Virus record (IMG/VR): IMGVR_UViG_3300035659_000003
Coordinates: 1-64,000 of that record
Reading direction: 5' to 3' (one strand)
Length of the DNA stretch: 64,000 bases
DNA from: a virus
The position numbers were made by a program, and so were the translations under genes. Of the stretch, positions 16,979-64,000 are shown piece by piece. A model generated the notes under the pieces. It saw only the letters and a program-made list of their open reading frames with translations. It was not told the origin of the DNA and did not search any database. The stretch's first letter is position 1. Each line of letters starts with the position of its first letter.

Positions 16979-17007
16979 ACGATACCAGGCTTTGCGCCCG
17001 TTGTCAA
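16979..17007 (-). promoter_or_regulatory. Strong host sigma-70 promoter before the sigma-like gene
   Basis: TTGACA (17007-17002), 17-nt spacer, TATCGT (16984-16979) with an extended-10 TGG just upstream. The -35 overlaps the stop of the HNH gene. The start codon of the sigma-like gene is 38 nt downstream. It is the closest match to the sigma-70 consensus that I found in the window. Confidence 0.8.
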
Positions 17008-50130: not shown

Positions 50131-50167
50131 CCTACCACACTCCTCGTGCTAGGGTAATAGGGATGAT

Positions 50168-50207
50168 AGGGGCGGGTCAGAGCAACCCTGTAGCGAAGTC
50201 CGCCCCT
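50168..50207 (-). terminator. Imperfect hairpin between fibre genes
   Basis: aggggcgg / ccgcccct arms enclose a 24-nt loop in the 86-nt gap 50131-50216. No T-run follows, so termination is uncertain; it could protect the message upstream. Confidence 0.3.
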
Positions 50208-50216
50208 GCACGCCTC

Positions 50217-50738: not shown

Positions 50739-50782
50739 TGTAGACCTCACTCCTGCTCGTTCTCGGCCCCTAGCGTGCTCAC

Positions 50783-51067
50783 CTAAGCTGGCCACGGGAG
50801 ACCGGCTTCCGCCGCTTCCTTCTTCAGCGCGCGGATGCGAGTCGTTATCTCGATTGCCCGCTGGCGCTGTGCCGCCACCTCCGGCGGAACGTTCCTGAAT
50901 GCTGGGTCGCTTGGATTGCTCAGATAAGCGCACTCTGAGCTGCAGTAGACCTTGCCTAGCACCGTGATGGGATGATCCACCTGACGCTCGCACAAGTCGT
51001 TATCGCAGACGTGCACCCCGTCGCACCCTGGCCGACCACATTCCTTGCAGTGTACCCGCTCAACCAT
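50783..51067 (-). CDS. Zinc-ribbon protein (94 aa)
   Basis: Start ATG 51067 with ACAGGAGGGG upstream. CKECGRPGC, CDNDLC and CSSEC could bind two zinc ions; the remainder is a basic coiled coil (QRQRAIEITTRIRALKKEAA). First gene after a terminator/promoter pair, so it opens the fibre transcript. Function unknown; a regulatory role is possible. Confidence 0.65.
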   Translation of the reverse strand: MVERVHCKECGRPGCDGVHVCDNDLCERQVDHPITVLGKVYCSSECAYLSNPSDPAFRNVPPEVAAQRQRAIEITTRIRALKKEAAEAGLPWPA

Positions 51068-51118
51068 GTCTTGCTCCCCTCCTGTGAGGATGTCTCTTCT
51101 CGCTACCCTTGTGCAGCT

Positions 51119-51148
51119 ATCATACGACAACACCGGCGGTAGACGAAG
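51119..51148 (-). promoter_or_regulatory. Promoter candidate before the zinc-ribbon and fibre genes
   Basis: TATGAT (51124-51119) with TTCGTC about 17 nt upstream as a weak -35. It sits just downstream of a terminator, as expected for the start of a new transcript. Confidence 0.45.
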
Positions 51149-51154
51149 GGCTCA

Positions 51155-51188
51155 CAAAACGCCCGCGACCCGCCGAAGCGGGCCGCAA
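51155..51188 (-). terminator. Intrinsic terminator with UUCG tetraloop
   Basis: Minus strand: GCGGCCCGC-TTCG-GCGGGTCGC, nine pairs with one G-U, then GGGCGTTTTG. It closes the transcript that carries the lipoprotein gene and 51221-51934. The 153-nt gap holds this hairpin, the next promoter and a leader. Confidence 0.75.
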
Positions 51189-51220
51189 AGCGGAAAGGTG
51201 AGATGCAGAAACTGTCTAGG

Positions 51221-51934
51221 TTAAGGGGTGTCGGACGCCTCGTCTAGTACTTGCTCCGCCCAAGCACACCAGGTAACGGCCTCCCCCAGGATATCCGAAT
51301 CCATAAGAGCCGTCTCCCCCTGAGCCGCGAGATATGCCCTCTCGTAGCATTGCAGAAAGGCTTCTAACTCCCCCGCTGCGGCGTCGTCGCGGGCAACACT
51401 GCCCCTCGCGTCGAGAAACTGCCTCACCCCACGGAGAACCGTGGTAAAGGGCGAGGATTCATATTCTGAGGTGGCCGCGCGCAGGTCATCAGCAGCCCCA
51501 CGCGGGAGAAGGAGATGATCAACGCGCCGCTCGTCCTCGGCCAGCGCCTTGAACGCGTTATCAAGGTCTGCCTCGGTTAGGGCAGGGTCTCTCCCCTTCG
51601 CACCTGGGGGAAGGGCGAGCACGTCGCGCCGAGTCAGCTCGTCCAAGTGGAAGTGCAGCTCGTCGTACAGGGGATTGCCTTCCTGCATAGTGATGCGCAC
51701 TAGCGCGCCGTCCTTGTGCACAAACAGAACCGTACCGAAGTCCCCGAAGAACTGAGAAGACTTATTGCTGATCGTAACAGAGTCACCGATCTGGAGCGCC
51801 CGCTCCTCGCTCGTCCGGCGGTTGTGAAGGAGCGCGTCCAGGTCTGCGTGGTGCCAGCGCAACTCGTGCGCGGGGATCACGCAGTCCCTTGGATCGTCGT
51901 GCCAGGTCTTGGCGTCTAGCGGGTTGAATATCAT
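51221..51934 (-). CDS. Hypothetical protein with a small beta-barrel domain (237 aa)
   Basis: Residues 46-90 (LQIGDSVTISNKSSQFFGDF, GTVLFVHKDGALVRI) look like an SH3/KOW-like barrel; the flanks are helical and acidic. It lies three bases after the lipoprotein gene, under class A copy 1. No family recognised. Confidence 0.55.
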   Translation of the reverse strand: MIFNPLDAKTWHDDPRDCVIPAHELRWHHADLDALLHNRRTSEERALQIGDSVTISNKSSQFFGDFGTVLFVHKDGALVRITMQEGNPLYDELHFHLDELTRRDVLALPPGAKGRDPALTEADLDNAFKALAEDERRVDHLLLPRGAADDLRAATSEYESSPFTTVLRGVRQFLDARGSVARDDAAAGELEAFLQCYERAYLAAQGETALMDSDILGEAVTWCAWAEQVLDEASDTP

Positions 51935-51937
51935 CCC

Positions 51938-52276
51938 CTAGTACTCCGGCGCAGGCTCCGTCGGCGGCAGCCTGTCCATGCACGCAAGGATGGCCGCGCT
52001 GAGTTCGTCGGGGAAGTAGTCGGGGTCGTTAAGCATGTCTTCCTCCAGCGCCAGGAACTCGCCGATGCTGACGTTCGCCTCTAGCTCCCGCAGGGTGCAA
52101 TGGCAGTAGGGCAGGAAGTCAGGATCAAACGACGTCGCCTCCGAGCAGCCCACAATGAAGAGGTCTTTGACTGCCTGCGGATAGCGACCGACTTCACCGC
52201 CCCCGCCGCCGCCGGAACAGGCTGCAAACAGGGCCATCGTCAGGGCGATTACGCCCAGAATAAGAACGTGCTTCAT
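51938..52276 (-). CDS. Phage-encoded lipoprotein (112 aa)
   Basis: Signal peptide MKHVLILGVIALTMALFAAC with a lipobox (L-F-A-A-C) and a Gly-rich stretch following the Cys. The mature part has several Cys (VGCSEATSF, YCHCTL) and an acidic helical end. Lipoproteins carried by phages often block superinfection at the cell surface; that function here is inference. ATG overlaps the upstream stop (ATGA). Host must have a lipoprotein export pathway. Confidence 0.7.
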   Translation of the reverse strand: MKHVLILGVIALTMALFAACSGGGGGGEVGRYPQAVKDLFIVGCSEATSFDPDFLPYCHCTLRELEANVSIGEFLALEEDMLNDPDYFPDELSAAILACMDRLPPTEPAPEY

Positions 52277-52449
52277 GAGGTGCCTCCTTCAATAAACAAG
52301 GGGAGGGCCGCGTCCGACGGTGTAGGCTCGGCTACCGGCGCGCGGAACCCGACATCGGCGGGCGCGGACTGCTCCCCGCCTAATCTTACGCCTGATTGCC
52401 GTATCACTCTAGACCCCGCCCTCTTCCAGCTCTTCACCACTCTGATCAC
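52273..52449 (-). CDS. 58-aa basic peptide under an ECF-type promoter
   Basis: GTG 52449 overlaps the upstream stop (GTGA), follows AAAGGTGG by a few bases, and the TGA overlaps the lipoprotein ATG. It reads VIRVVKSWKRAGSRVIRQSG, then a Pro/Ala-rich end. Continuous coupling to the lipoprotein gene supports it. It may be a leader that sets lipoprotein translation. Confidence 0.45.
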   Translation of the reverse strand: MIRVVKSWKRAGSRVIRQSGVRLGGEQSAPADVGFRAPVAEPTPSDAALPLFIEGGTS

Positions 52450-52775
52450 CCACCTTTCACTGATATAGACGGTGCCAGTAGCCCTGTGTTACACCTTTTC
52501 GGTGGGTTTTTCACTTTTTCTTGCAGGCCTAGCCGTGCCCGCTGACTGCCGGTCAGTTGCCGGAGCTGCTTAGGCCGGAACGGATACCAGACACCCCCTT
52601 CAACAGGAAACCCCCACGCCTGCAGGACGCGCACGGAGCGGGGGTCAAACGACACGAGCAGCCACCGCCCCTCCAGAACGGCCTCCACCTTGACTAGGTG
52701 ATCGTTGATCAGCAGGCAGTCGGGGTCGGAGAGGTAGTAGTGGTCGCCAACCCGAATCGTCGCGATCTGGGCCAT
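52446..52775 (-). CDS. Hypothetical protein (109 aa)
   Basis: Start ATG 52775 shares a base with the upstream TAA. Beta-rich (IATIRVGDHYYLSDPDCLLI, GRWLLVSFDPRS), with a basic C-terminus (RARLGLQEKVKNPPKRC). The last codons overlap the class A promoter copy 1. Function unknown. Confidence 0.6.
   Translation of the reverse strand: MAQIATIRVGDHYYLSDPDCLLINDHLVKVEAVLEGRWLLVSFDPRSVRVLQAWGFPVEGGVWYPFRPKQLRQLTGSQRARLGLQEKVKNPPKRCNTGLLAPSISVKGG
52453..52492 (-). promoter_or_regulatory. ECF-sigma-type promoter, class A copy 1
   Basis: GTAAC (52492-52488), 16 nt, CGTC (52471-52468), then TATATCAGTGAAAGGTGG. The block from ACCGTC to GGTGG is shared with copies at 54256 and 61892. A-rich DNA lies upstream of GTAAC, a possible UP element. 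It drives the 58-aa peptide, the lipoprotein and 51221-51934. Confidence 0.65.
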
Positions 52776-52873
52776 TAGCGTATCTCCAGCCACACGGCCA
52801 GGGCGATCACGAGCATCGTCCCCACGCCCCATAGCTCCAGGATGATCAGCCAGGCCGGTAGGTCAAACCACAT
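52775..52873 (-). CDS. 32-aa membrane peptide
   Basis: ATG 52873 follows the upstream stop by one base. One transmembrane helix (LIILELWGVGTMLVIALAVW). It is the second 32-aa membrane peptide in the genome with tight coupling on both sides. Confidence 0.45.
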   Translation of the reverse strand: MWFDLPAWLIILELWGVGTMLVIALAVWLEIR

Positions 52874-52874
52874 C

Positions 52875-53120
52875 CTAGAACCGCTCCTGCAGGGTCTGGC
52901 GTGATATGTAGGGCAGGCTGCCCAGCGCCGCCGACACGCGTGCGTAGAGCTGCGGCGCGTCGCGCTCCCCGAAGGGCGCGCCGAAGTCTGCGATGACCGA
53001 CTCCGTGCACACAGAGCAGGCGTACAGATCACCGCTCCGAATCAGCTCGCCCTCGCGAACGAAAACGCCGATCTCCTGGCACCGCATCGGACTACCACAT
53101 AGTGGACACACAAGCAGCAT
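52875..53120 (-). CDS. Small zinc-ribbon protein (81 aa)
   Basis: CPLCGSP and CSVCTES form a four-Cys ribbon; the C-terminus is helical. Overlaps the upstream gene by 29 nt. Function unknown. Confidence 0.65.
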   Translation of the reverse strand: MLLVCPLCGSPMRCQEIGVFVREGELIRSGDLYACSVCTESVIADFGAPFGERDAPQLYARVSAALGSLPYISRQTLQERF

Positions 53121-53397
53121 CTCGGCTCCCCTTTCTGTATAGCGCCCATTCGTCCTCGACCTTGAACGCCTGGTATGCGTTGACGTTCGGAATCTGGCCT
53201 CGGATAAGCGCCTTCAACGTCTCGTCAGTAATCGCCGCACGGATTTCCTTGAGGCACGTGCGGCACGTCGCCCTATCAATATCGCCAGTGACGTTGGCGG
53301 GATTACGGAGCGTCTGCTCGCACAGGGTGTGGAACCGCACCAACATCTCCCCGTGCCCCTGGCGCGTGAAGGCTTGTCCTAGATGGATAACGCTCAA
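53092..53397 (-). CDS. Hypothetical protein with CxxC (101 aa)
   Basis: I use the TTG at 53397, which overlaps the upstream stop (TTGA). A CRTC pair at mid-protein and a helical layout. Later ATG (MLVRFH) is possible. Function unknown. Confidence 0.55.
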   Translation of the reverse strand: MSVIHLGQAFTRQGHGEMLVRFHTLCEQTLRNPANVTGDIDRATCRTCLKEIRAAITDETLKALIRGQIPNVNAYQAFKVEDEWALYRKGSRDAACVSTMW

Positions 53398-53633
53398 ACT
53401 ACCTCCGCCTCGAAGCCGGACTCGTGGAGCATCGTCGCCAGCTTGTGCGCGTTCTCGACGGCGCATCCGGCGGAGACCCCCGTGACCGTCGACTCATCGC
53501 GCGCGGTATTGACCGAGACGCCGCCTTCAGGGAAGACGCGCTTGAAGTCGCGCGTCAGCTCGTCGTTGTTAGGCAGCTTCTCGTGGATCACGTAGGCGTG
53601 ATACTTGCCGAACATGAACCGAACCGTAGGCAT
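53394..53633 (-). CDS. Small hypothetical protein (79 aa)
   Basis: Beta-alpha-beta-beta-alpha pattern, beginning MPTVRFMFGKYHAYVIHEKL. Coupled at both ends. No family recognised; an ACT- or RRM-like fold could be tested by structure prediction. Confidence 0.55.
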   Translation of the reverse strand: MPTVRFMFGKYHAYVIHEKLPNNDELTRDFKRVFPEGGVSVNTARDESTVTGVSAGCAVENAHKLATMLHESGFEAEVV

Positions 53634-53945
53634 CTAAACTACCCCCAACCGCGCCAGGTTGTATCCCGCGCGGACGCCGCGCCCATGCTTGCAGAGGGTG
53701 CTGCCGAACATGTGCCGGAACTCGTAATCGCCGCAAATGCACGTGAGCGTGGGCCGTTCGGGTTCCAGGTAGATGCGGTAGTGGCGGCCCTCCGGCGAGG
53801 TCAGGCCGATGTAGCCCCGCGCTGACCGGCGGTGGAAGCGGTAGAATACCAACACATCCAGCGCTTTCGGATCGAGGTTTCTCAGCCATCCCCCGCGCCG
53901 ATGGATGTTGCGCCGCTGCAACCTGGGCCAGGTAAGGGCTGTCAC
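53634..53945 (-). CDS. SWIM-type zinc-finger protein (103 aa)
   Basis: LTCICGDYEFRHMFGSTLCK followed by HGRG matches the CxCx(n)CxH signature of SWIM fingers. The N-terminal half is basic with beta strands (RLQRRNIHRRGGWLRNLDPK). SWIM domains bind DNA or protein in transposases, helicases and kinases; a stand-alone small one may be an adaptor. In the operon behind class A copy 2. Confidence 0.65.
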   Translation of the reverse strand: MTALTWPRLQRRNIHRRGGWLRNLDPKALDVLVFYRFHRRSARGYIGLTSPEGRHYRIYLEPERPTLTCICGDYEFRHMFGSTLCKHGRGVRAGYNLARLGVV

Positions 53946-53947
53946 CG

Positions 53948-54232
53948 CTAGACCTCCCGCGTGTAATGCAAGGCCTCGAGCCGCTCGCCGAGGCGCTTGA
54001 CGTAGTCATCCACACCCGTGTAACCAGCGTGGCCCCTGGCGTAGACCTTCCAGCCGTAGTCGTGGGAGCCTGTGTCACTGCGGAACCACACCGCGTAGCG
54101 CCGCAGAACGACCCCATTGCTCCGCACGGCGTACTCCCTGACGCGCGCGCTAACGAGATCGTCGTCCGGAGTGTCCCACTCCTTGCGCCAGCGGGCCAGG
54201 ATCGTCGTTCCCTTAGTTGTCAACTTCGCCAT
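53948..54232 (-). CDS. Small hypothetical protein (94 aa)
   Basis: Start chosen at ATG 54232 (MAKLTTKGTTILARWRKEWD), 9 nt from GGAGG; an ATG two codons earlier is too close. Alpha/beta (RRYAVWFRSDTGSHDYGWKV). First gene behind class A promoter copy 2. Function unknown. Confidence 0.6.
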   Translation of the reverse strand: MAKLTTKGTTILARWRKEWDTPDDDLVSARVREYAVRSNGVVLRRYAVWFRSDTGSHDYGWKVYARGHAGYTGVDDYVKRLGERLEALHYTREV

Positions 54233-54240
54233 AATCATCC

Positions 54241-54280
54241 ACCTCCACTGATATAGACGGTGGTGGGCGAAGATCGTTAC
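54241..54280 (-). promoter_or_regulatory. ECF-sigma-type promoter, class A copy 2
   Basis: GTAAC (54280-54276), 16 nt, CGTC (54259-54256), then TATATCAGTGGAGGTGG. The leader contains the Shine-Dalgarno sequence. AAAAAGGC upstream is an A-rich stretch similar to the other copies. Fills most of the 62-nt gap before the deoxyribosyltransferase-like gene's end. Confidence 0.65.
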
Positions 54281-54294
54281 GCCTTTTTGCGCGA

Positions 54295-54774
54295 TTATCC
54301 GGCTTCTTCTACATCCAGCCCCGCGAACTCTAGAACGGCGTGCACAGCCTCCTCGCGACTGTGCACACGGCAGCTCGCGGCCTCGCGGACGAAGGCGTGC
54401 TCGTGGGGGTTCCCCTCCTTCTCCATGATGAGGACGACGAACTTGTGCAGGTGCGACGCCCAGGCCAGCTCGAACATCGAGCCGATGCTTGCCTTTGTTG
54501 CGCCCAGGAAGTCCGCGATGATCACGTCAACGGTAGACACATCGTGGTGGTCTCGCGCGAAGATGGCCGAGTCCGTTGACATAGCTGCGCGGTAGTGGCC
54601 GGACGGCAGCGGCTTGTTGCGGTATTGATGGGACAGGCTACGCTTCCCCCGCATAGGCGAGCGAACCTCGACTCCGCGCTTCTCCAGTGGCATGGCGATC
54701 TCCTCGCGGTGGGTGATCGCCTCGTCATATGTAAGGCCGGTTATGGGGCCACACAGATAACAAGATACGTGCAT
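54295..54774 (-). CDS. Nucleoside 2-deoxyribosyltransferase-like protein
   Basis: 159 aa. The N-terminal CYLCGPITGLTYDEA, then STDSAIFARDHHDVSTVDVI, IADFLGATKASIGSMFELAW and KFVVLIMEKEGNPH follow the NDT/DUF4406 fold (Rossmann-like, catalytic Glu in SMFELAW). These enzymes swap or hydrolyse nucleobases of deoxynucleosides and are found in phage nucleotide salvage and DNA modification. With the HAD nucleotidase and the dNTP diphosphohydrolase-like gene it makes a small nucleotide-metabolism set. Confidence 0.7.
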   Translation of the reverse strand: MHVSCYLCGPITGLTYDEAITHREEIAMPLEKRGVEVRSPMRGKRSLSHQYRNKPLPSGHYRAAMSTDSAIFARDHHDVSTVDVIIADFLGATKASIGSMFELAWASHLHKFVVLIMEKEGNPHEHAFVREAASCRVHSREEAVHAVLEFAGLDVEEAG

Positions 54775-54785
54775 GGTTCCTCCTT

Positions 54786-55238
54786 CTAGAATACGTCCCC
54801 GTGAAGTTCGTAATGGCAGTTCTTACACAAGAGGACACACTTCTCAACCTCGCGGCAGAACAGATCGGTGTTGCTGCGCCACAGCCCTGCTGAAATTCGC
54901 CGCTCTTTAACCGCGCCGTCCTCATGGTGAAAGTCTAGTGAGCCGCCATACGTATTATACCCGCATTGCTGACAGCCGAGACCTTCTTTATAGGCAGAAA
55001 ACGCGTCTCGCCGCCGACCCCGAAATTTCCTAGCCCGCGTCAGGTAGGCTGCTCTGCGGCAGGGTTCGCTACAGTAACACGCCCCAGGAGATGGGAACGG
55101 AATCGGGCCTCCGCACTCGCGACAGGGGCGGCGACGCTTCATTCTATAGCAACGCTGCAGCGCGGCCCATCGTTCAGGATTGCGCGCGGCCCACGCGCGA
55201 GATCTAACCGTTTTAGGATTCTGGCTCAGGATAGACAT
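54786..55238 (-). CDS. HNH endonuclease-like protein
   Basis: Start ATG 55238 (MSILSQNPKTVRSRAWAAR) overlaps the upstream gene by 26 nt. A CREC/CSEPC zinc site is followed by the HNH core CQQCGYNTYGGSLDFHHEDG and VLLCKNCHYELH. Probably a homing endonuclease inserted between two small genes. Confidence 0.75.
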   Translation of the reverse strand: MSILSQNPKTVRSRAWAARNPERWAALQRCYRMKRRRPCRECGGPIPFPSPGACYCSEPCRRAAYLTRARKFRGRRRDAFSAYKEGLGCQQCGYNTYGGSLDFHHEDGAVKERRISAGLWRSNTDLFCREVEKCVLLCKNCHYELHGDVF

Positions 55239-55536
55239 CGCCGTTCTCAGAACATTTGCGCCGCTCGTAAGGCACCACCACACGGCGATACAGCTCCTGA
55301 TCGACATTTTTCAACACACCGGTCAGCAGGGCAATCTTCCAGTATCTAGGCGTGCCCATGAGGTTCAGGACTAGCGTGGTGATGGCATAATTGAGCAGGC
55401 CCGCCTCCACGGTCATCCTATCCGCCTCTAGCTGTGCGGCAGGGGCCATCATGGTGCGCTCGTTGCGGATGGCATCTGCCAACTGACGCACCCAGGTGTC
55501 AATGAACTCGCGGTTCTTCTTCGGCACGTAGGGCAT
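55213..55536 (-). CDS. DUF6899-like phage protein (107 aa)
   Basis: MPYVPKKNREFIDTWV start, NYAITTLVLNLMG centre and GVLKNVDQELYRRVVVPYE end resemble a small phage family that I know as DUF6899. Conserved helical fold; biochemical role unknown. Confidence 0.6.
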   Translation of the reverse strand: MPYVPKKNREFIDTWVRQLADAIRNERTMMAPAAQLEADRMTVEAGLLNYAITTLVLNLMGTPRYWKIALLTGVLKNVDQELYRRVVVPYERRKCSENGDVYPEPES

Positions 55537-55836
55537 CTACATACCTCCTACAGGATGGCCGCAGACACGGCACACCACGACTTCTTCGAAATACTGCTCG
55601 GTCGTAGGTCGACGCTCGATGATGTGCTCACCGTGTTGCACGCGCAGCAGCGAGGCATTCACCCGCACACGCTCGCGGTCAACGGGGACGATTCGGAAGC
55701 TGCCGTCGCAATGCTGCTCCAGACGCACCCGCTTGTCCATCAGCGGCTCCAGGTAGCGCTTAAGGAATACCTCCGTGCCGCAGCACGAGCGGATCAGAAC
55801 CGCGTCCCCCCGCCACTCCAATGTTCCCTCAGTCAT
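55537..55836 (-). CDS. Small hypothetical protein with zinc pair (99 aa)
   Basis: Start ATG 55836 overlaps the upstream stop (ATGA). The C-terminal CRVCGHPVGG and internal SCCG could bind metal. Beta-rich centre (DGSFRIVPVDRERVRVNA). Function unknown. Confidence 0.6.
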   Translation of the reverse strand: MTEGTLEWRGDAVLIRSCCGTEVFLKRYLEPLMDKRVRLEQHCDGSFRIVPVDRERVRVNASLLRVQHGEHIIERRPTTEQYFEEVVVCRVCGHPVGGM

Positions 55837-56042
55837 ACAGCCCTCCCTACTACCGGAACCACTGGCACATCCGCCGCCAGTGCCCACTGAACGGCCACTG
55901 TCGGCCCCTCACAGCGTGGGCAGTACCTGATTACCTGCTCTGGGCGAAACCGCCCGTGAGGGAAGTCCTCCGGTCTGGACGGGCGGTAGCCGTAGGGCCA
56001 GTCGCACGTGCCACACCGTGCCCCAATCAGGATCGCGTTCAT
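55833..56042 (-). CDS. Small zinc-ribbon protein (69 aa)
   Basis: CGTCDWP and CPRCEGP make a zinc ribbon. Coupled by ATGA overlaps on both sides. Function unknown. Confidence 0.65.
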   Translation of the reverse strand: MNAILIGARCGTCDWPYGYRPSRPEDFPHGRFRPEQVIRYCPRCEGPTVAVQWALAADVPVVPVVGRAV

Positions 56043-56533
56043 GCCTTTTTCACCAGGTGGATGTGGGGATGGTTCGGGAAGCAGCTCCGGTCGGTGCTGA
56101 GCACCAAGTCGGGATAGCGCTTGATCCCGCGCCGAACCAGCTCAAGGATATAGCCTCCGTCACGGGGCCACACGCCGTGTCGTGCGTTGGTGTTCTCCTT
56201 CACCGCGATCACGATATCGCCGCAGTAGGGGCAGTCCGCCACCCAGATATCCACATCCTCGTACCACCACTGATAGCCCTTGTGCGGGCGCTCACAGAGG
56301 AAGCACGACCCCTTGGCCGGTTTCGGTAGGGGTGGGGGCGGGCACACGGGCTCCGACTGCGTCGTCGCCAGGAGCGTGCCGTCTTCCCACACCTTGAAAA
56401 AGGCGTAGCGGCCATCCAGCACCTCGAGGCACAACTGGTGCCCTTTCGGGATGATCTCGACGGGCACCGACGAAGCTGCGTGAACCTTCAGATCACGCCC
56501 TGTGTCGTTGAAGAATACGGCGTGTGCTGTCAT
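56039..56533 (-). CDS. Hypothetical protein with two CxxC sites (164 aa)
   Basis: N-terminal beta domain (LKVHAASSVPVEIIPKGHQL), then CFLCERPHKG and CPYCGDIVIA, and a His-rich end (NHPHIHLVKK). It may bind zinc. The His end recalls HIT-type motifs but the order of elements is wrong for a HIT hydrolase. Confidence 0.55.
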   Translation of the reverse strand: MTAHAVFFNDTGRDLKVHAASSVPVEIIPKGHQLCLEVLDGRYAFFKVWEDGTLLATTQSEPVCPPPPLPKPAKGSCFLCERPHKGYQWWYEDVDIWVADCPYCGDIVIAVKENTNARHGVWPRDGGYILELVRRGIKRYPDLVLSTDRSCFPNHPHIHLVKKA

Positions 56534-56856
56534 GACTCCTCCTTCTCCCGCGCCAACAGGATGCTGTTCCAGCTAAACTCTACCACGTCTGCATAGGGCA
56601 GGTCGTCCAGCAACCGATCTGCGATTGCCGTGCCCTCGTACTCGGCGAACTGAAATCGGATACCCTCGATCGTAGCAAACAGCCGCGTGCAGGTCGCAAC
56701 GATGTAGCGCCAGCCCTTGTCGTTCTCGGCGTTGTGGATGGCCCAGCATGGCACCAGCTCCGCGTCAATGCGCTCAACTGGAAGGCCCGTCAGTGTGCGG
56801 GCCGCCACACAGGTCAGCGCCAGAGCCATCTCAAGTTCCGTCCACATGTAGCTCAT
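56530..56856 (-). CDS. Hypothetical protein (108 aa)
   Basis: Start ATG 56856 (MSYMWTELEMALALTCVA); the longer reading is shadow. Mainly helical with a Cys in each half. Overlaps the upstream gene by 26 nt. Function unknown. Confidence 0.55.
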   Translation of the reverse strand: MSYMWTELEMALALTCVAARTLTGLPVERIDAELVPCWAIHNAENDKGWRYIVATCTRLFATIEGIRFQFAEYEGTAIADRLLDDLPYADVVEFSWNSILLAREKEES

Positions 56857-57037
56857 CCTTATGATACCAGGCCTGGGCTCCGCGTGCGGCATTGATCGAG
56901 ACCAAGAACCACCCGCGCCCGAATATCCCGTCAATGTCTTTCTGCCCACTCATAATGACGGTGCCGCCGCTCCCAGCGAAACACTGGAACCGCTGGCCTG
57001 GCGGCTTGATGATGGTAACGCGGGTTCCGCGTCTCAC
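56831..57037 (-). CDS. Small beta-barrel protein (68 aa)
   Basis: MRRGTRVTIIKPPGQRFQCF, GGTVIMSGQKD, FLVSINAARGAQAWYHKDEL: a pattern of short strands like an SH3 or KOW barrel. Coupled by ATGA. Possibly nucleic-acid or protein-binding. Confidence 0.6.
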   Translation of the reverse strand: MRRGTRVTIIKPPGQRFQCFAGSGGTVIMSGQKDIDGIFGRGWFLVSINAARGAQAWYHKDELHVDGT

Positions 57038-57240
57038 TTAGTTCTCTCCAGGCACTGTGTGATCCGGCGCGCCAGGAGCTTCGCGTCCCCGCGCGAGATC
57101 GTAAAGGCGAAGCCAGGCTTATCCTCTTCGGGGTAGATCTCCAGCTTCAGCTCCTGGGGGCTCGCCGTCGAGACGTAGCCGTTCGGGTATTTGCCTGGTT
57201 TACGCCAGCCCCACATCAGCCCTGGGATGTGCTTGGCCAT
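57034..57240 (-). CDS. Small hypothetical protein (68 aa)
   Basis: Basic N-terminus (MAKHIPGLMWGWRKPGKYPN) and a beta/alpha remainder with an amphipathic end (LLARRITQCLERTK). Overlaps the nucleotidase end by 41 nt. Function unknown. Confidence 0.55.
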   Translation of the reverse strand: MAKHIPGLMWGWRKPGKYPNGYVSTASPQELKLEIYPEEDKPGFAFTISRGDAKLLARRITQCLERTK

Positions 57241-57832
57241 TTGCTTCCTCCAGTATGTCTAACAGCGCCCCAACGCCAGGTATCCGCACGATCTTCGGGT
57301 GTTCGAGATGCCGGTTGTAGGGGTAGTCAAGAGTGAAGACCGTGATTCCCGCCTCTGCCAGGGCCTGCACAGCTCTCGGGTGGTCGTCCACCATAACAGT
57401 GATGCCTAGCTCCTCGCATTTGGCGGGCTTGTCGCTCGGCTTCTCGACGGTGAATACGGTAGGCTGTACCAGCAGGTGCCACTGCAGCCAGCGCGCCGTT
57501 TGCTCCGCCGCTGGCCTGCCCGTCACGCGCCCGCGCGCCGTAATCCAGGTCACCTCCCAGGTGTCCATCAAGCAGCGCAGCCGCCACCACTCGTCATCGG
57601 TTAGCAGACTAGGCACCCTCTCCCACGAGTTCGGAACCTTGTCGAACTCCCGCCACGCCGCGTTGATGGCCTTCTTGTCCACACCATAGAGCACGGCCAG
57701 GTCAGACACCGTGGCGTCGCCCCCTCGGATCGGCGTGACGGGGTTGCCTGCCGCATCCCGCAGGAACCGCGCCCAGTAGGTCATGAAGTCCGCGACAACT
57801 CCGTCCACATCCCAGCCTATGCGATAACTCAC
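57200..57832 (-). CDS. HAD-family 5'(3')-deoxyribonucleotidase-like
   Basis: 210 aa from GTG 57832, which overlaps the LAGLIDADG stop (GTGA). HAD motif I WDVDGVVADFM, motif II VTWITARG, and later VEKPSDKPAKC with VMVDDHPRAV. Such enzymes remove phosphate from deoxynucleotides. Forms a nucleotide-metabolism set with 54295-54774 and 59259-59654. An open frame continues upstream of this start but lies on the LAGLIDADG gene and is rejected. Confidence 0.8.
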   Translation of the reverse strand: MSYRIGWDVDGVVADFMTYWARFLRDAAGNPVTPIRGGDATVSDLAVLYGVDKKAINAAWREFDKVPNSWERVPSLLTDDEWWRLRCLMDTWEVTWITARGRVTGRPAAEQTARWLQWHLLVQPTVFTVEKPSDKPAKCEELGITVMVDDHPRAVQALAEAGITVFTLDYPYNRHLEHPKIVRIPGVGALLDILEEANGQAHPRADVGLA

Positions 57833-58275
57833 TGTTGGCTCCGTCTCCCGCGTAGCGCCTGATAGATAATTGCGCGAGTGATTGCCACGAACGGGCCATG
57901 CCACCACCCACCACGATGCGCAGGTCGCCCACCCTGTCCCAGAATAGGAAATGCTACAAATAGCTCTGCGTCTGAACGCCTGCGTCCCCGAAAGTAAGGC
58001 AGCAACATACGGATGATCCACTGCGCCCTGCGTCCAGTAACAACCCAGTCTCCACAGAGCGCCCAGTTCTGCCGCTTTCGAAGTCGGATATCGCCCGCCC
58101 CCGTCCCGTCCTGACACGCCTGCAAAAGCTGCGTATCAGTGTTAGTCACGCGCAGTCTAAGAGCGAAGCCAGTCGGACATCGGTAGCACTGAAGGTGACC
58201 CTCGCCCTCCACGATGCCCGCAAGCCAGCCTAGAAACGAGTCTGAGGAATCCAAAACCCTAGTCCTCTTACGCAA
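57829..58275 (-). CDS. LAGLIDADG homing endonuclease
   Basis: 148 aa with one LAGLIDADG motif FLGWLAGIVEGEGHL, RLRVTNTDTQLLQACQ and a basic C-terminus. Start TTG 58275 or TTG 58254 (the latter is better spaced from AAGAGGAC). Inserted directly in front of the nucleotidase gene with a GTGA coupling, so it may have taken over that gene's start. It is unrelated in detail to the one at 19576. Confidence 0.8.
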   Translation of the reverse strand: MRKRTRVLDSSDSFLGWLAGIVEGEGHLQCYRCPTGFALRLRVTNTDTQLLQACQDGTGAGDIRLRKRQNWALCGDWVVTGRRAQWIIRMLLPYFRGRRRSDAELFVAFPILGQGGRPAHRGGWWHGPFVAITRAIIYQALRGRRSQQ

Positions 58276-58456
58276 ACAGAATCACGCCTGCTATAGCCAA
58301 CGCAGGAAGCCCTACCATGACTAGGCACGCCGCCCAGAACGGCCAGCGAGGATAGCTGCAGACCACCAGCACGCATTCGCCGTCCAGCACACTACGCTCG
58401 CCGCAACGTGGGCAGATCTCAAGCCCCAGGCCGCCAGTGCCGGAACCGCCGCCCAT
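58268..58456 (-). CDS. Zinc-ribbon plus TM protein (62 aa)
   Basis: Gly-rich start (MGGGSGTGGLGLEICPRCGE) with CPRC, a later Cys pair, then one TM helix (WAACLVMVGLPALAIAGVIL). A membrane-anchored zinc ribbon. Function unknown. Confidence 0.6.
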   Translation of the reverse strand: MGGGSGTGGLGLEICPRCGERSVLDGECVLVVCSYPRWPFWAACLVMVGLPALAIAGVILFA

Positions 58457-58457
58457 G

Positions 58458-59066
58458 CTAGTCCTCCACCGCGTCGACCATACCCCACTCCAGAGCCTCT
58501 TCGGGGAAGAGGTAGACGGGGGTGTTGGCCTCTAGAATCGTGAGCCAGAACTCCTCGGTCTTGTAGGGTGTCCCCGCCGCCGCCGTGCTGCGCTCCGCAT
58601 GGAACTTGGCTGTCTCCCTGTGCAACCGCGTCAGAAGCTTCTGCTCCGCGTTGAGGTCGCGCAGGTCGCCCACCGTCCAAGACGTGATGCCGTGCACCAT
58701 CAAGAAAGCGCTCTTGCCCATCTTGCGGACGTTGCACGTCTGGAGAACCTCGAACGCAGCGCTCATGCCGTGCCCGTAGACCTCGCCGGTGACGATGCAG
58801 CCCTTCCGCTGCGCCGCGCGGATCGCGTCCACGATAGCAAACTCGGACTCCACACTGCCGCCGTTCGAGGAGATGCGGACGGTGATCGGGTCAGGCTTCT
58901 CGCTGAGAAGGCTGATCTCCCGAACGATCCTGGCCGCCATCTCCGACCCCACGCGCTCGTCCAAGTAGACCTCGCGGCGCTTGAGGGCGGCAAACCGAAG
59001 CGAATCCTCGTAGCCGCGTGGCTCCTTCGTCTCGTCCACGTAGGTAGGCTCGTCCTGAGTCCTCAT
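58458..59066 (-). CDS. ClpP-like serine protease, second copy
   Basis: 202 aa from ATG 59066. The ClpP fold is seen as RISSNGGSVESEFAIVDAIR, nucleophile Ser102 in YGHGMSAAF and His125 in FLMVHGITSW. It lacks the coiled coil of the copy at 11073. It lies between zinc-ribbon genes in the accessory operon. Possible targets: host regulators, or a phage prohead if expressed late. Confidence 0.82.
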   Translation of the reverse strand: MRTQDEPTYVDETKEPRGYEDSLRFAALKRREVYLDERVGSEMAARIVREISLLSEKPDPITVRISSNGGSVESEFAIVDAIRAAQRKGCIVTGEVYGHGMSAAFEVLQTCNVRKMGKSAFLMVHGITSWTVGDLRDLNAEQKLLTRLHRETAKFHAERSTAAAGTPYKTEEFWLTILEANTPVYLFPEEALEWGMVDAVED

Positions 59067-59067
59067 A

Positions 59068-59262
59068 CTAGCCCTTCCTCTCCTTCTGATCGCTATCGAT
59101 CGTCCAGTTCGCGATGACATCCTCGGCGCAGCCTCCGCAGTAGCAGCCGTCGTCTATCCAGTGCACGCACCCTGAGCAGACCGCCAACCCGCAGGTCTCG
59201 CACTCGTGCTCCGGAAACTCCGCGCTGCAAAACCAGCAGGGGAACTCGCCCACGTCCATCAC
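59068..59262 (-). CDS. Small zinc-binding protein (64 aa)
   Basis: Six or more Cys in three pairs (CWFC, CETCGLAVC, CYCGGC) give a B-box/LIM-like arrangement. Overlaps the upstream gene by ATGA. Function unknown. Confidence 0.65.
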   Translation of the reverse strand: MMDVGEFPCWFCSAEFPEHECETCGLAVCSGCVHWIDDGCYCGGCAEDVIANWTIDSDQKERKG

Positions 59263-59654
59263 TCCGCCTCTGACTCCTGCGGCGCGAACGCTCCGGCGCG
59301 AATGGCCTCGACCGCCTCGATGTCGCGACCGTCAAGTGCCCTGTCGTCAAGCTCAGGATGCGTCCGCTCATACTCCATCAGCGTCAACGCACACCAAGCG
59401 ACCGACGCCAACACATGCTGGCCGTCCTTCGGGTCGAGTGAGACCCCCTTGCGGAACGTCTCCAGGTGCCGCATCATTGCGCCGATGACACGGCTCCAGG
59501 CCATGCCCTTGCGCCAGTTGTGATCGGTGTATTTGCGGGCACCCATCGTGTAGACGAACGCCACCGCCCCTAGTGGCAACGGGGGGATCAGATCATAGCG
59601 GAGTTTCTCCGCGTCGTTCTTCCAGGCCGGTAGTTTGGCCTTCGGGCCGCTCAT
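59259..59654 (-). CDS. dATP/dGTP diphosphohydrolase-like protein (DUF5664 type)
   Basis: 131 aa, start ATG 59654. The core LRYDLIPPLPLGAVAFVYTM, GARKYTDHNWRKGM, MMRHLETFRKG and HVLASVAWCALTLMEY is the signature of PF18909-type phage proteins (MazG-like helical fold, Glu/Asp metal ligands). Enzymes of this group cleave dNTPs; related ones serve 2-aminoadenine phages. No PurZ-like synthetase is in the window, so a base-substitution pathway is not supported. Confidence 0.75.
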   Translation of the reverse strand: MSGPKAKLPAWKNDAEKLRYDLIPPLPLGAVAFVYTMGARKYTDHNWRKGMAWSRVIGAMMRHLETFRKGVSLDPKDGQHVLASVAWCALTLMEYERTHPELDDRALDGRDIEAVEAIRAGAFAPQESEAE

Positions 59655-59944
59655 CACCAAGTCCTGTCCAGCTCCACCGGATAGGGATCGCTCGGCTCGT
59701 CGTCTAGAAACGAATCCTCCGGTGGCTCGCCCGTAGGAAACCCTCCACTCAGGACATAATCTGGGGAAGCGTAAGGGTCGTCGCGGGCCGCGTCGTCGAG
59801 GTCGAGTACAGGCCGATAGGCCCTGAACGGGGCCTTGTTGATGATCCTGACCGTAGTGGGGCTCCCTTGCCGCACTAGGTACTCTAGCGCCTTGCGGATT
59901 CCCCGCATCTCCTCCAGCATCTGCCGTTGCTGCTCGATACACAT
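59654..59944 (-). CDS. Hypothetical protein (96 aa)
   Basis: A helical N-terminus (EQQRQMLEEMRGIRKALEYL) and an acidic, Pro-rich tail (DLDDAARDDPYASPDY). Coupled to the diphosphohydrolase gene (TGATG-type). Function unknown. Confidence 0.55.
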   Translation of the reverse strand: MCIEQQRQMLEEMRGIRKALEYLVRQGSPTTVRIINKAPFRAYRPVLDLDDAARDDPYASPDYVLSGGFPTGEPPEDSFLDDEPSDPYPVELDRTW

Positions 59945-59947
59945 AGA

Positions 59948-60364
59948 CTAAGCCTCCTCTATCTCTCGTGCCCAAGGTGGCACCTCGGTCAGTGGTTCCA
60001 GTTCCGGCACGAGGCCGCTGAATTGCTGCAAGACAAGGAACACCTGCAGCAGCACCGGCTGTGCATTGTCATAGGACGTGCGCCCCAGGCTGGAGACAAT
60101 CATCCAGGCGTCGTCGAACGTCAAGGCCAGCTCCTGCTTATCGGCGCTAGGGGCAGCCGCCGCACCGTATCCGGCGATCGCCGCTGTGGTGGTGACGCCC
60201 TTTGGAAAGGTCAGGGCCAGGATGATATCTTGCACCTTGCGGAGTAGATAGTGCACCTCCGACTCGTCCTTCCCCAGCACGTGAGGGCCGCTAATGCCGC
60301 GCAAGAGTTCATGGATGGCCCAGCCGTCAGTCAGGCTCACCCATATCGTCTTCGTATCGGACAT
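59948..60364 (-). CDS. Hypothetical protein (138 aa)
   Basis: MSDTKTIWVSLTDGWAIHEL, mostly helical, with an Ala-rich linker (IAGYGAAAAPSADK). Overlaps the upstream gene by 38 nt. Function unknown. Confidence 0.55.
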   Translation of the reverse strand: MSDTKTIWVSLTDGWAIHELLRGISGPHVLGKDESEVHYLLRKVQDIILALTFPKGVTTTAAIAGYGAAAAPSADKQELALTFDDAWMIVSSLGRTSYDNAQPVLLQVFLVLQQFSGLVPELEPLTEVPPWAREIEEA

Positions 60365-60590
60365 TGGGCACCTCCTCCGATAAGGAATCTACCGCTAGCA
60401 CAATCGTCTCCTCGAACTCAGGGTGCTCAGCGCGGAGAAACTCCGTAACCGCGCCGCACTTCTTGCAGACGCCATGCTCGTAGAAATAATGACTCCCCAT
60501 CACCCATGTGGGCCGATCCATAATGTAGTGATGGACGCAGTTCGAGTCCCCGCCACGGACGTTGACTCGCTGTGAGGCGTGCTTACCCAC
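60327..60590 (-). CDS. Hypothetical protein with CxxC (87 aa)
   Basis: Contains CVHHYIMDRPTW and GVCKKCGAVTEF, so a zinc site with His and Cys ligands is likely. The C-terminus is acidic. Overlaps both neighbours. Function unknown. Confidence 0.55.
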   Translation of the reverse strand: MGKHASQRVNVRGGDSNCVHHYIMDRPTWVMGSHYFYEHGVCKKCGAVTEFLRAEHPEFEETIVLAVDSLSEEVPNVRYEDDMGEPD

Positions 60591-60948
60591 GCGTCCACCC
60601 CGTCGCCGCCGCCAGACGCTCCTGAGCAGTCGCGTCCGGCAGGGTATTGATCTCGGGATCGGTGCGAGATAGGCCCAGGATGCGGTCGGTGCTCTTCTCC
60701 TCGGGGTCGCCCCGCTGCTCGGCGTGTTCTCGCATCTCCTGCGCCAACGTGTAGGCGGGCCGGATATGGTCGGAGAATGTGTAAACGTCCAGTGCTCCGA
60801 ACCGGCCTAGTGGCACACGCACCGTTACGATTTCCCACGCGTGCTCCCCGAAGGCGTAGCGCTCGACGGCGACAACGACGCCGATCGCCCGCAGCGCTCT
60901 CCGCTCAGCCGTGTGAAGGATTTCTGCTAGCTCACCGAGCCTCGTCAT
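60583..60948 (-). CDS. Hypothetical protein (121 aa)
   Basis: MTRLGELAEILHTAERRALR, alpha/beta. An acidic middle and a helical end. Second gene behind class B promoter copy 2. No family recognised. Confidence 0.55.
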   Translation of the reverse strand: MTRLGELAEILHTAERRALRAIGVVVAVERYAFGEHAWEIVTVRVPLGRFGALDVYTFSDHIRPAYTLAQEMREHAEQRGDPEEKSTDRILGLSRTDPEINTLPDATAQERLAAATGWTRG

Positions 60949-60966
60949 TGGTATTCTCCAGTGCTA

Positions 60967-61425
60967 CTAGGCCGCATTTGCCCGTCGCCTCCCATGAACT
61001 TCCTCGTTGTGCTGCGCCAGAGTGTCGTTCAATCTGTCAAAAGGCACAGTTGAGGTAGTACCGTCGCACCAATGAATCGGGACGGGCGGGTGAAACTGCA
61101 TCCGCCACGCAATGGCCTCGTCGCTCTTGGCGTTGGCGTCAAGGCGCGTGGCCTTGGTACCTGCAGGGACGAGTTTGAGCGGCGTCGGCGTGTCGACGAC
61201 CCTCGCCGCGACTGCTGCCCGCTGCCCCCCCTCGGCCAGGCTCCAGAAGCGCCAGCCGTTGCAGGCGACTCCGCCCGTGATTGCGCTCCCCGCCGCCGAC
61301 AAGCTCCCGAACTCCCGCCCGTCCTCCAGGCGGCAGCGCCCCCCATCGAGGACGGTGGCCCCGTAAGCGTCGCCCTTATAACGAGCCACCAATGGTGTGC
61401 CCGCTGCCAAGCTATGCCGAGCCAT
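60967..61425 (-). CDS. RAMA-domain protein (putative reader of modified DNA)
   Basis: 152 aa. Residues 7-65 match the RAMA fold pattern: GTPLVARYKGDAYGATVLDG, CRLEDGREFGSLSAAGSAIT, ACNGWRFW. RAMA domains are predicted to read methylated or otherwise modified bases. The remainder is charged with a hydrophobic strand. It is the first gene behind class B promoter copy 2 (GGGAGG ribosome binding site). It may sense host or phage DNA modification. Confidence 0.7.
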   Translation of the reverse strand: MARHSLAAGTPLVARYKGDAYGATVLDGGRCRLEDGREFGSLSAAGSAITGGVACNGWRFWSLAEGGQRAAVAARVVDTPTPLKLVPAGTKATRLDANAKSDEAIAWRMQFHPPVPIHWCDGTTSTVPFDRLNDTLAQHNEEVHGRRRANAA

Positions 61426-61446
61426 ACGCGACCTCCCTTTCTGCTT

Positions 61447-61477
61447 ACTATGACGATCCGGCGGGGTCTTCGGTCAC
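61447..61477 (-). promoter_or_regulatory. ECF-sigma-type promoter, class B copy 2
   Basis: GTGAC (61477-61473), 17 nt, CGTC (61455-61452), then ATAGTAAG. Strongly similar to the element before the 548-736 gene. It overlaps the end of the 56-aa gene upstream and sits 15-20 nt before the RAMA gene's Shine-Dalgarno sequence. Confidence 0.65.
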
Positions 61478-61618
61478 ACCCCGCACCCGCTCAATAGGAA
61501 ACCGGATGATCTTATGGGCCTCCTTCTTGGCCCGCTGATAGTCAGCCATGAAGCGGTTCGCCACGCCCATGAATTTCAAGAAGCGGCGCAGCTCAAGGTC
61601 AATCGGCTCCTTGTCCAT
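61448..61618 (-). CDS. Small basic helical protein (56 aa)
   Basis: ATG 61618 with AGGAGGG well placed. It reads MDKEPIDLELRRFLKFMGVA, then a basic helix (DYQRAKKEAHKIIRF). Its stop TAG is inside the class B copy 2. Behind class A copy 3. Function unknown; a DNA-binding role is possible. Confidence 0.6.
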   Translation of the reverse strand: MDKEPIDLELRRFLKFMGVANRFMADYQRAKKEAHKIIRFPIERVRGVTEDPAGSS

Positions 61619-61630
61619 CGTCAGGCCCTC

Positions 61631-61864
61631 CTAGCTAAGCAGGGCCTCGACTAGCCCCTGCCGAAACGCCGCAATGATATCTGTGTTGCTCAGGCCCGCC
61701 GCGCGGAGTGCCTTGATCTTAGTCGCCGTCGCCATCTGGGTAGGCGTCCACAGACACGTAGCCTTCGAAGTCAGACTGAGAACCTCGGCGATGCGGGGCG
61801 CGGTGACGCTCAGCTCCTGCTGAAACTTCCGCACTGCTTCGTCGATCTCGTCTTGCGTAAGCAT
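61631..61864 (-). CDS. Small hypothetical protein, possible HTH (77 aa)
   Basis: MLTQDEIDEAVRKFQQELSV, then TPTQMATATKIKALRAAGLS followed by NTDIIAAFRQG, which has the spacing of a helix-turn-helix. First gene behind class A promoter copy 3. Candidate regulator; not certain. Confidence 0.55.
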   Translation of the reverse strand: MLTQDEIDEAVRKFQQELSVTAPRIAEVLSLTSKATCLWTPTQMATATKIKALRAAGLSNTDIIAAFRQGLVEALLS

Positions 61865-61876
61865 CCCCGATCACCA

Positions 61877-61916
61877 CCTTTCACTGATAGAGACGGTCGG
61901 CTGGGGGGAGTGTTAC
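61877..61916 (-). promoter_or_regulatory. ECF-sigma-type promoter, class A copy 3
   Basis: GTAAC (61916-61912), 16 nt, CGTC (61895-61892), then TCTATCAGTGAAAGGTGG. One base differs from copy 1 in the region after CGTC. It abuts the stop of the minor head gene (61920) and starts the accessory gene block. Confidence 0.65.
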
Positions 61917-61919
61917 GGG

Positions 61920-64000
61920 TTATTCTGGGGATTTTTTAGGGTTCTTCCGACGAACAGGCCGGAATGTGGGCCGTGCCTTCCGATAGATCAGGAAGCAGCG
62001 GCAGTTAGACCGGCAGATCGTGCTGCCGTCTCGGGGTAGGCGGGGCATCCGGTTGGCGGGCCAGGGGCTCTGCGTGGCCATCTCCAGGCACGTAGCACAG
62101 TGCTCAGCGCCAAGGGTCAGCTTCCAGTGGGCCTTCATCTGCGGCAGGTTCTCCGAGACGGTCTGATGATACAGTCCGGCGGAGCCGTCCGCGTAGAGCT
62201 TGGCGCGCCAGATGGCCTGCTTCTCGGTCTTGACCTTGCCCGCCGCCAGATCGTCGCGGAAGCCGTCGAGGTAGTGGTGCTGATGTCTCAACTCGGCCAT
62301 GAGATTATCCCGTGCCCGCTGCCGTGCGTCCGGCGTTTCCTTGAGCCGCAGCGTCGAGGCGTAGGCCGACTTGCCATAGAGGTCATCAACCGCCGCGCGC
62401 ATCTGTGCGTGCCAGGTATCCACGTCGCCTTCGCCGCGCCACAGGGCACACGTTGCGGTCTCCATTGCCTTCTTCGTGCGCCCGATCTCCATGTTGACGC
62501 GCTCAAGCGGGGAGGGCCACCGGCGCTTGCCTCGCTTGTCCAGCTTAAAGTACACGCGGGAGGGCAGATCGGAGTCCACGGCGGTGCGGGCCTTGTTGAT
62601 GCCCATCGCTGCTAGGCGCATCAGCATCTCTGCATGCGCGATTTCCGCCAGGGTAATAGGCGCATTCCGGCTGTCCTGCACGTCCTGAGAACCAGCAACA
62701 CCCTGGTTCGTGGTGACGATCCCCGTCGTGACTTCCGGTGCGTTGCCGGTGTGGGCACGAGAATCCATCGGCTCGGTTGGCGCGCCCTTCTCAACCTCCC
62801 CACCTACGAATATCTGGATGTGCCGCCCGTCCGAGGTGGTCACGAACTTGCGGGGGGCGATCCCCAGCTCCTCACCGAAGTCCTTGTTCAGGGTATCCGC
62901 CTCGTCCTCGACGGGGTTCCACTCAAGCAGCTCCGCGATAGCGTCGTAAAGCCCCGAGAAGCGCCGCTTAAACTTAGTAGGGCTTATCGTCATGTATGCC
63001 ACGCACTCGGCGAACATCTCCGCCGAACTGTCGCGCCCGTAGTGACTCGGGAGACCGCGTGCCGTCTCCTGCGCCGCGTGGAAGGCATCGAGCCAGGTGT
63101 CAGAATTAGAGAAGCGACGCTCCGTGCCATCGTCCATGACATGAGCATACTCGTGGGCGATCACCGCCCGCATGGTGTCATAGGGGCCAGAGGGAAGCTC
63201 TCCCCCCATCGCGCTCCCCCACGACTGGGCGTCGAGGGTCAGGACACTGACCTCCGCCTCATCATATCCGACGTAGGTCATGCCCGCCGCCTTGCCCACG
63301 TCGTCTGGAGACAGCTCGCCCGCTTCTGCCAGATCTTCCATAGCACGTCTCATATCGTCGCGGGAGTAGGTGTGCCAGACCGCATTAGGTACGCCGTGCG
63401 GTGCGGGCATCAGCACCAGCACCTCAGCGACGATGGGCTGATCCTGAACGTAGACATCAGCGAAGTCATGCTGCTCGGCGATCTTGAGCGCGGTGAATAG
63501 CTCGTGGATTTTCTTCGGTATTGCCTCCCCGCCATGCCGGTTGATGTCGCGGATATGGCGAATCAGGGCGCTCCGTCGGACGTGGGCACCTCCGTGCTTG
63601 CCATGCTTCTTCTGATCATGCTTGCCTGGAAGGTGCTTCTCGACCCCACTCGCAGGCTGCAACGCGAACACATCATGCGTCTGCTTTGTCCAGTCGGCAT
63701 TATGCATGTCCTCGTCCAGCCACACGGCCTCTTGTGCGGCGAGTTCGATATTGTGATGCCGCATATCCTGCTCGAAGCGCTCCTCCCACGCCGGTAGTTC
63801 CTGCCCTCCAGCACGCCGAGCAACGACATCAATTTCCCCGCCGATGACTAGCATCTCATACTCTTCGGCGCAGCCAGGCCCTGTGCGGAACGTCGAAAAG
63901 ATCTTATCACGAGGCACGCGGGCGGCAACCAGCATCTGCTCTTCCTCATGGTGTATAGCAAAGCGCGTTGCAACCGAGTACTCGCTGGCGAAGGACGACA
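61920..64000 (-). CDS. Minor head protein, 5' truncated: ADP-ribosyltransferase-like end, zincin domain and MuF-type tail
   Basis: At least 692 codons, open past the right edge. The visible N-terminal part (SSFASEYSVATRFAIHHEEE, then VPRDKIFS and AEEYEMLVIGG) has the STS-like strand and ExE motif (EYE) of R-S-E-type ADP-ribosyltransferases. A linker with KHLPGKHDQKKHG follows, then a metallopeptidase-like domain with HEYAHVMDD and a downstream Glu (SSAEMFAECVAY). The C-terminus is MuF-like: HCATCLEMA, then RSNCRCFLIYRK. Such proteins enter the head with DNA and may be injected. Order ART-zincin-MuF is unusual. Nucleotides 61917-64000 are all coding. Confidence 0.8.
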   Translation of the reverse strand, partial: SSFASEYSVATRFAIHHEEEQMLVAARVPRDKIFSTFRTGPGCAEEYEMLVIGGEIDVVARRAGGQELPAWEERFEQDMRHHNIELAAQEAVWLDEDMHNADWTKQTHDVFALQPASGVEKHLPGKHDQKKHGKHGGAHVRRSALIRHIRDINRHGGEAIPKKIHELFTALKIAEQHDFADVYVQDQPIVAEVLVLMPAPHGVPNAVWHTYSRDDMRRAMEDLAEAGELSPDDVGKAAGMTYVGYDEAEVSVLTLDAQSWGSAMGGELPSGPYDTMRAVIAHEYAHVMDDGTERRFSNSDTWLDAFHAAQETARGLPSHYGRDSSAEMFAECVAYMTISPTKFKRRFSGLYDAIAELLEWNPVEDEADTLNKDFGEELGIAPRKFVTTSDGRHIQIFVGGEVEKGAPTEPMDSRAHTGNAPEVTTGIVTTNQGVAGSQDVQDSRNAPITLAEIAHAEMLMRLAAMGINKARTAVDSDLPSRVYFKLDKRGKRRWPSPLERVNMEIGRTKKAMETATCALWRGEGDVDTWHAQMRAAVDDLYGKSAYASTLRLKETPDARQRARDNLMAELRHQHHYLDGFRDDLAAGKVKTEKQAIWRAKLYADGSAGLYHQTVSENLPQMKAHWKLTLGAEHCATCLEMATQSPWPANRMPRLPRDGSTICRSNCRCFLIYRKARPTFRPVRRKNPKKSPE

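Follow-up and report, generated by a model that had tools for sequence, protein, structure and literature searches.

The 64,000-nt stretch analysed here (the window) corresponds to bases 1-64,000 of the 109,910-bp virus record IMGVR_UViG_3300035659_000003 (G000 below), and it contains, in front of several genes, repeated two-block elements of the form GTNAC-N16/17-CGTC that have the shape of promoters recognised by extracytoplasmic function (ECF) sigma factors. It is likely that the phage uses an ECF-like sigma factor of its own, encoded by gene 16441-16941 and first made from a host-type promoter, to direct RNA polymerase to a regulon of these bipartite ECF-type promoters. As far as the sequence goes, the identification of the elements as putative ECF-type promoters is much better supported than the identity of the sigma factor that reads them.

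Five elements had been described in the window by a first-pass annotation, and their sequences, coordinates, strands and spacers proved to be exactly as given there. They are a subset of 13 copies in the full record, eight of class A and five of class B (Table 1), all on the coding (minus) strand, which also carries every one of the 169 called genes. The motif search of the complete genome that the annotation had proposed yielded 11 minus-strand matches to GTRAC-N16/17-CGTC, against an expectation of 1.5 in third-order Markov sequences (maximum 5 in 60 runs), together with three plus-strand matches and none for a reversed-pattern control; none of the plus-strand matches has the downstream box, and they seem to be due to chance. 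A weight-matrix scan added two class B copies, whose boxes read GTCAC and GTTAC. The fuller class A pattern was found eight times against 0.05 expected, and the class B pattern five times against none in the same type of random sequence. Class A copies score at least 25.7 bits with their matrix (next match 12.6, reversed control at most 17.9), and class B copies at least 19.8 bits (reversed control at most 18.7), with one unsupported plus-strand match at 20.4. The same signal was recovered by a de novo dyad search of gene leaders, which ranked GTAAC-16/17-CGTCT first (six leaders, nominal p 6e-14), and by a motif-blind k-mer search, whose strongest strand-specific 9-mer was CGTCTATAT (6 copies against 0.11 expected). 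A scan of IMG/VR with the class B pattern matched four contigs, two of which are near relatives of this phage; the exact class A scan gave 75 single matches in unrelated contigs, at about chance level, and was not used.

Table 1. Promoter-like elements, sigma-like gene and its predicted promoter in the record
Feature	Position	Strand	Context
Class A, GTAAC-N16-CGTC then TATATCAGTGAAAGG	52468-52492	-	heads short GTG open reading frame 52273-52449
Class A, GTAAC-N16-CGTC then TATATCAGTGGAGG	54256-54280	-	heads gene 53948-54238 (-)
Class A, GTAAC-N16-CGTC then TCTATCAGTGAAAGGTGGTGATC	61892-61916	-	heads gene 61631-61864 (-)
Class B, GTGAC-N17-CGTC then ATAGTAAG	61452-61477	-	overlaps 3' end of gene 61448-61618; heads gene 60967-61425 (-)
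Class B, GTGAC-N17-CGTC then ATAGTAAG	760-785	-	overlaps end of large terminase gene 782-2272; heads gene 548-736 (-)
Class A outside the window (first GTNAC base)	97426, 98955, 101285, 102027, 106025	-	
Class B outside the window (first GTNAC base)	107065, 107333, 108992	-	
ECF-like sigma factor gene, 166 aa	16441-16941	-	between primase and RecA; region 2 with DXXR motif, degenerate region 4
Predicted housekeeping (sigma-A-type) promoter of sigma-like gene, TTGACA-N17-TATCGT	16979-17007	-	

Positions 1 and 109910 of the record are contiguous in a fragment of a near relative (G006) that spans both ends, which means that the record is either circular or circularly permuted and that the elements at 97-110 kb and at 0-0.8 kb belong to one cluster.

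When the 13 copies are aligned on their boxes, all of CGTC is invariant, as is GTNAC apart from its N, so that every copy combines a -35 box with an AC/AAC core and a CGTC -10 box, at a spacing of 16 bp in four copies and 17 bp in nine. Within the spacer there is a C-tract, and conservation resumes after CGTC, with TATATCAGTG in class A copies and ATAGTAAG in class B copies. Ten copies are followed by a called gene, and in these CGTC lies 17-49 nt from the start codon, with a Shine-Dalgarno sequence in between. The ECF-promoter shape that had been proposed for the elements is supported by this position before gene starts, by boxes and spacing that match almost exactly the mapped Tt-RpoE1 promoter of Thermoanaerobacter tengcongensis, and by an exchange of boxes at record position 102209 (see below). 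The accompanying claim, that A-rich DNA precedes the class A copies, holds for the three in the window, whose 20 nt upstream contain 50-60% A+T, and fails for the full set of eight, in which the range is 25-60% in a genome of 39% A+T; the idea of an A-tract (UP-element) is weakened, since A-richness is not a regular feature of the class A copies beyond the window. A search of window positions 50000-64000 gave no sigma-70-type promoter, against 3.2 expected.

Every class B copy extends into the 3' end of the gene that precedes it. In four of the five, the overlap encodes the C-terminal tail VT(E/D)...SS, with a TAG or TAA stop after CGTCA; the genes concerned, which end inside the elements, are 61448-61618 and, in record coordinates, 107036-107284, 107304-107867 and 108963-109202. 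The terminase gene stops at a TGA within the GTGAC of its own copy, and the notion that all class B copies encode the same tail was therefore rejected. The tail could be a protein-level by-product of promoter overlap, or it could be a conserved tag.

The leader at record position 102209 (minus strand) reads TTGACT-N17-TATGGT-GGGTTCAGTGAAAGGTGGTGAT. Its downstream part, CAGTGAAAGGTGGTGAT, and the C-tract of its spacer are of class A type, and both of its boxes are of housekeeping type; the A of CAGTG lies 7 nt past the -10 box in the ECF-box form and in the housekeeping-box form alike. This is the layout expected if GTNAC/CGTC and TTGACT/TATGGT were alternative -35/-10 pairs for the same leader, and the exchange thus supports the interpretation of the elements as ECF promoters.

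A single sigma-like protein was recognised in the record, the product of gene 16441-16941, whose presence had also been proposed by the annotation. The gene is real and syntenic: a sigma-like protein is encoded at the same place in relatives that share the gene order of portal, terminase, primase, RecA and polymerase (identity to the G000 protein is 81% in G006 and 62% in G015), and three of these syntenic relatives exceed the Pfam Sigma70_r2 cut-off of 24 bits (34.3, 29.2 and 24.2 bits). A profile of ten family members searched against the PDB matched the ECF sigma factors SigE (1.3e-4) and CnrH (2.2e-4, a match that covers most of the length), and the lower matches were almost only sigma factors. 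Two AlphaFold models of the 166-aa protein (mean predicted local distance difference test score, pLDDT, 69 and 76; 87-96 over most of region 2 in the second model) gave Foldseek lists headed by the structures of SigL and SigE of Mycobacterium tuberculosis, with alignments covering the full length of the phage protein, and nearly all of the first twenty matches of the second model were sigma factors, mostly of the ECF group. The modelled helices (H3-20, H28-45 and H53-85, then H94-109, H114-126, H131-134 and H143-165) and the length of the protein fit the ECF size (~160-200 aa) and a layout with regions 2 and 4 only. In region 2.4 it contains a DXXR motif (N63-CVL-D67-MQ-R70), in which D67 aligns with the D of ECF sigma factors. 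Membership of the sigma-70 superfamily, with ECF sigma factors as the best matches, is supported by these sequence and model comparisons. The predicted promoter of the gene is kept as TTGACA-N17-TATTGT in G006 and as TTGACT-N17-TATGCT in G015. An apparent homing-endonuclease-like open reading frame (17000-17410, recognised by eye) lies between the primase and the sigma-like gene in G000; G006 and G015 lack it, and in them the sigma-like gene directly follows the primase.

Comparison with relatives (G002-G006 and G009-G015, among which G011 and G013 are fragments of 54 and 37 kb and G015 is a 20-kb core stretch) shows how the elements and the DXXR motif are distributed. The near relatives G005 and G006, whose terminases are 97% identical to that of G000, have retained the class B copies located at the end of the terminase gene and at the gene matching 108963-109202, and in G006 there is in addition a class A copy, flanked upstream by a conserved gene and downstream by a gene that differs from that of G000. 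Both of them carry the sigma-like gene, in agreement with the co-occurrence of gene and elements that the annotation had offered as a check, and relatives with the elements and without the gene were not found in this set. The DXXR motif is present in G000, G006, G015, G011 and G013 and absent from five aligned relatives (G002, G003, G004, G010 and G012), and the GTNAC/CGTC set was seen in none of these five. A search for GTNAC/CGTC pairs in G002-G004 and G009-G014 revealed no consistent excess on the coding strand; G012 has six coding-strand matches against one on the opposite strand, but their sequences have nothing further in common. Two of the relatives without DXXR possess one-strand repeats of another kind, GAGTATAAT in G010 (16 copies against 0.09 expected; 22 copies when the leader repeat is written GAGTA(T/C)AAT) and GGTATAATG in G012 (13 copies against 0.43 expected). 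No -35 signal was found with these TATAAT-type repeats, and in each of the two genomes one copy lies directly before the sigma-like gene.

In the proposed scheme, the phage sigma factor would first be made by the host sigma factor from the TTGACA/TATCGT promoter, and it would then direct the host RNA polymerase to the GTNAC/CGTC promoters, opening a regulon of at least 13 transcription units located in accessory gene clusters. GTNAC would act as the -35 box and CGTC as the -10 box, 16-17 bp apart, and transcription would start 6-10 nt past CGTC, which would place the Shine-Dalgarno sequence almost at the 5' end of the mRNA. Transcription from the elements, binding by the phage sigma factor and this order of expression are what we infer from these data.

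Several observations weigh against the assignment of the elements to the phage protein. The core of the record (2.3-50 kb), including the region upstream of the sigma-like gene, contains no element; searching the record directly with the Pfam profiles for regions 2 and 4 gave no match, the protein being below Pfam detection; the Foldseek E-values are weak, 0.06 at the lowest; region 4 of the protein is degenerate, its helices being predicted at pLDDT ~55-77 and without a Pfam region 4 match; and in the G011 and G013 fragments, which have the DXXR motif, no such elements were seen, nor was there an excess of AAC-N15/18-CGTC. In addition, the boxes are of a general ECF type used by many bacterial sigma factors (PMC3397946), and a host ECF sigma factor could read them. 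According to this alternative, which we regard as unlikely, the phage would tap a host stress regulon, and its own sigma-like protein would serve some other purpose; it would agree with the contrast between the sigma-like gene, a core gene that no element precedes, and the elements, which are accessory and specific to a lineage. It is opposed by the absence of DXXR from the aligned lineages without CGTC elements, to which G011 and G013 are the exceptions, by the repeated promoter-like motifs of G010 and G012 with their copies before the sigma-like gene, and by the fact that well-conserved, low-copy promoters are typical of phage-encoded sigma factors (PMC4331800).

Instead of promoters, the elements might be sites at which a phage regulator binds, either operators or start-associated sequences, like those of Cluster K or like stoperators. 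Like the Cluster K sequences, they are asymmetric, have a single orientation, lie close to start codons and are confined to non-structural regions (PMC3203893). However, two blocks separated by a gap of 16 or 17 bp fit the binding of a sigma factor and not a single 13-bp site, the blocks equal a mapped ECF promoter, and at 102209 both of them are swapped for housekeeping -35 and -10 boxes, which makes this explanation improbable. That the copies are intergenic cassettes which were duplicated recently, spread through recombination and have no transcriptional role, is very improbable, because, despite the long similar stretch that class B copies share with the end of the upstream gene (VT(E/D)...SS being encoded in four), spacers and flanks vary between copies while the boxes are constant, the spacing alternates between 16 and 17 bp, and the boxes are kept in related phages whose neighbouring genes differ.

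If the elements are read by the phage sigma factor, the distribution among relatives allows a further, tentative proposal: a single syntenic family of phage sigma factors may have switched promoter type between lineages, with DXXR and two-box GTNAC/CGTC promoters in G000, and no DXXR and extended -10 promoters of TATAAT type in G010 (GAGTATAATA) and G012 (GGTATAATGTA). Were such a switch real, the family would offer a natural series in which to follow how sigma specificity evolves. With a core ECF-like sigma factor whose promoters have two boxes in one branch and one box in others, the co-evolution of sigma factors and promoters could be tested directly, the family would supply orthogonal sigma/promoter pairs, and the combination of DXXR and CGTC would be a rule for reading regulons in uncultured phages.

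From the presence of RecA, DnaB, PolA and TTGACA promoters, we infer a bacterial host; host scans using an alignment of the major capsid protein gave no match. The portal (record 86992-88782) is ~26% identical to those of the 102-kb haloarchaeal tailed viruses HCTV-5 and HVTV-1, despite the indication of a bacterial host by RecA, PolA and DnaB. Two genes for ClpP-like proteases are present in G000 (58458-59066 and 11073-11915, with Pfam CLP_protease values of 1.3e-15 and 4.2e-30, respectively), and a 3-kb stretch of the record (63936-66883) has no convincing minus-strand gene and several plus-strand open reading frames of 90-217 aa.

A tblastn search with the sigma-like protein of the relative G004 against 50,697 phage records (INPHARED) returned nothing with an E value of 1 or lower. 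ECF-like sigma factors encoded by phages, with a handful of strongly conserved promoters, have been described in phiEco32, 7-11 and Privateer (PMC4331800, PMC7881722), and in phage 7-11 and phiEco32 host-type promoters drive the initial expression of the sigma gene (PMC4331800). G000 resembles phiEco32 and 7-11 in having a phage ECF-like sigma factor and few conserved promoters, and in the host-type promoter that would first serve its sigma gene. The promoters of phiEco32-type phages (Kuravirus) consist of an extended -10, TAATGTATA, with no recognisable -35 (PMC5333181), a consensus to which GGTATAATGTA of G012, also without a -35, bears a resemblance. The putative promoters of G000 differ from those of phiEco32 in their two-box ECF form, in place of an extended -10 without -35, and since the phage ECF promoters of phiEco32 type lack a -35, the two-box form would be new. 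Cluster K mycobacteriophages also carry many near-identical, start-proximal repeats in one orientation in non-structural regions, but theirs are a single 13-bp sequence, GGGATAGGAGCCC, that overlaps the ribosome-binding site (PMC3203893), whereas the elements of G000 are two boxes of another sequence upstream of that site.

Among bacterial sigma factors, the closest likeness is to Tt-RpoE1: the GTNAC core of the -35 box, a CGTC -10 box followed by TATA and a Shine-Dalgarno sequence, the spacing of 16 bp and a DXXR motif in region 2.4 are all shared. Promoters of the SigX, SigW and SigM type in Bacillus subtilis combine an AAC-type -35 box with a spacing of 16-17 bp. They differ from those proposed here in the -35 box (TGAAAC as opposed to GTNAC), and the CGTC-type -10 box is common to them (PMC3397946). 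The promoter of Tt-RpoE1 has been mapped as tGTTAC-N16-CGTC, and it has been shown experimentally that the D of its DXXR motif reads the G of CGTC (-12G) (PMC3397946). Tt-RpoE1 is a chromosomal sigma factor of a bacterium, accompanied by an anti-sigma gene, whereas in G000 the sigma gene is a phage gene, the spacing is 16 or 17 bp, the spacer is C-rich and the element is present in 13 copies.

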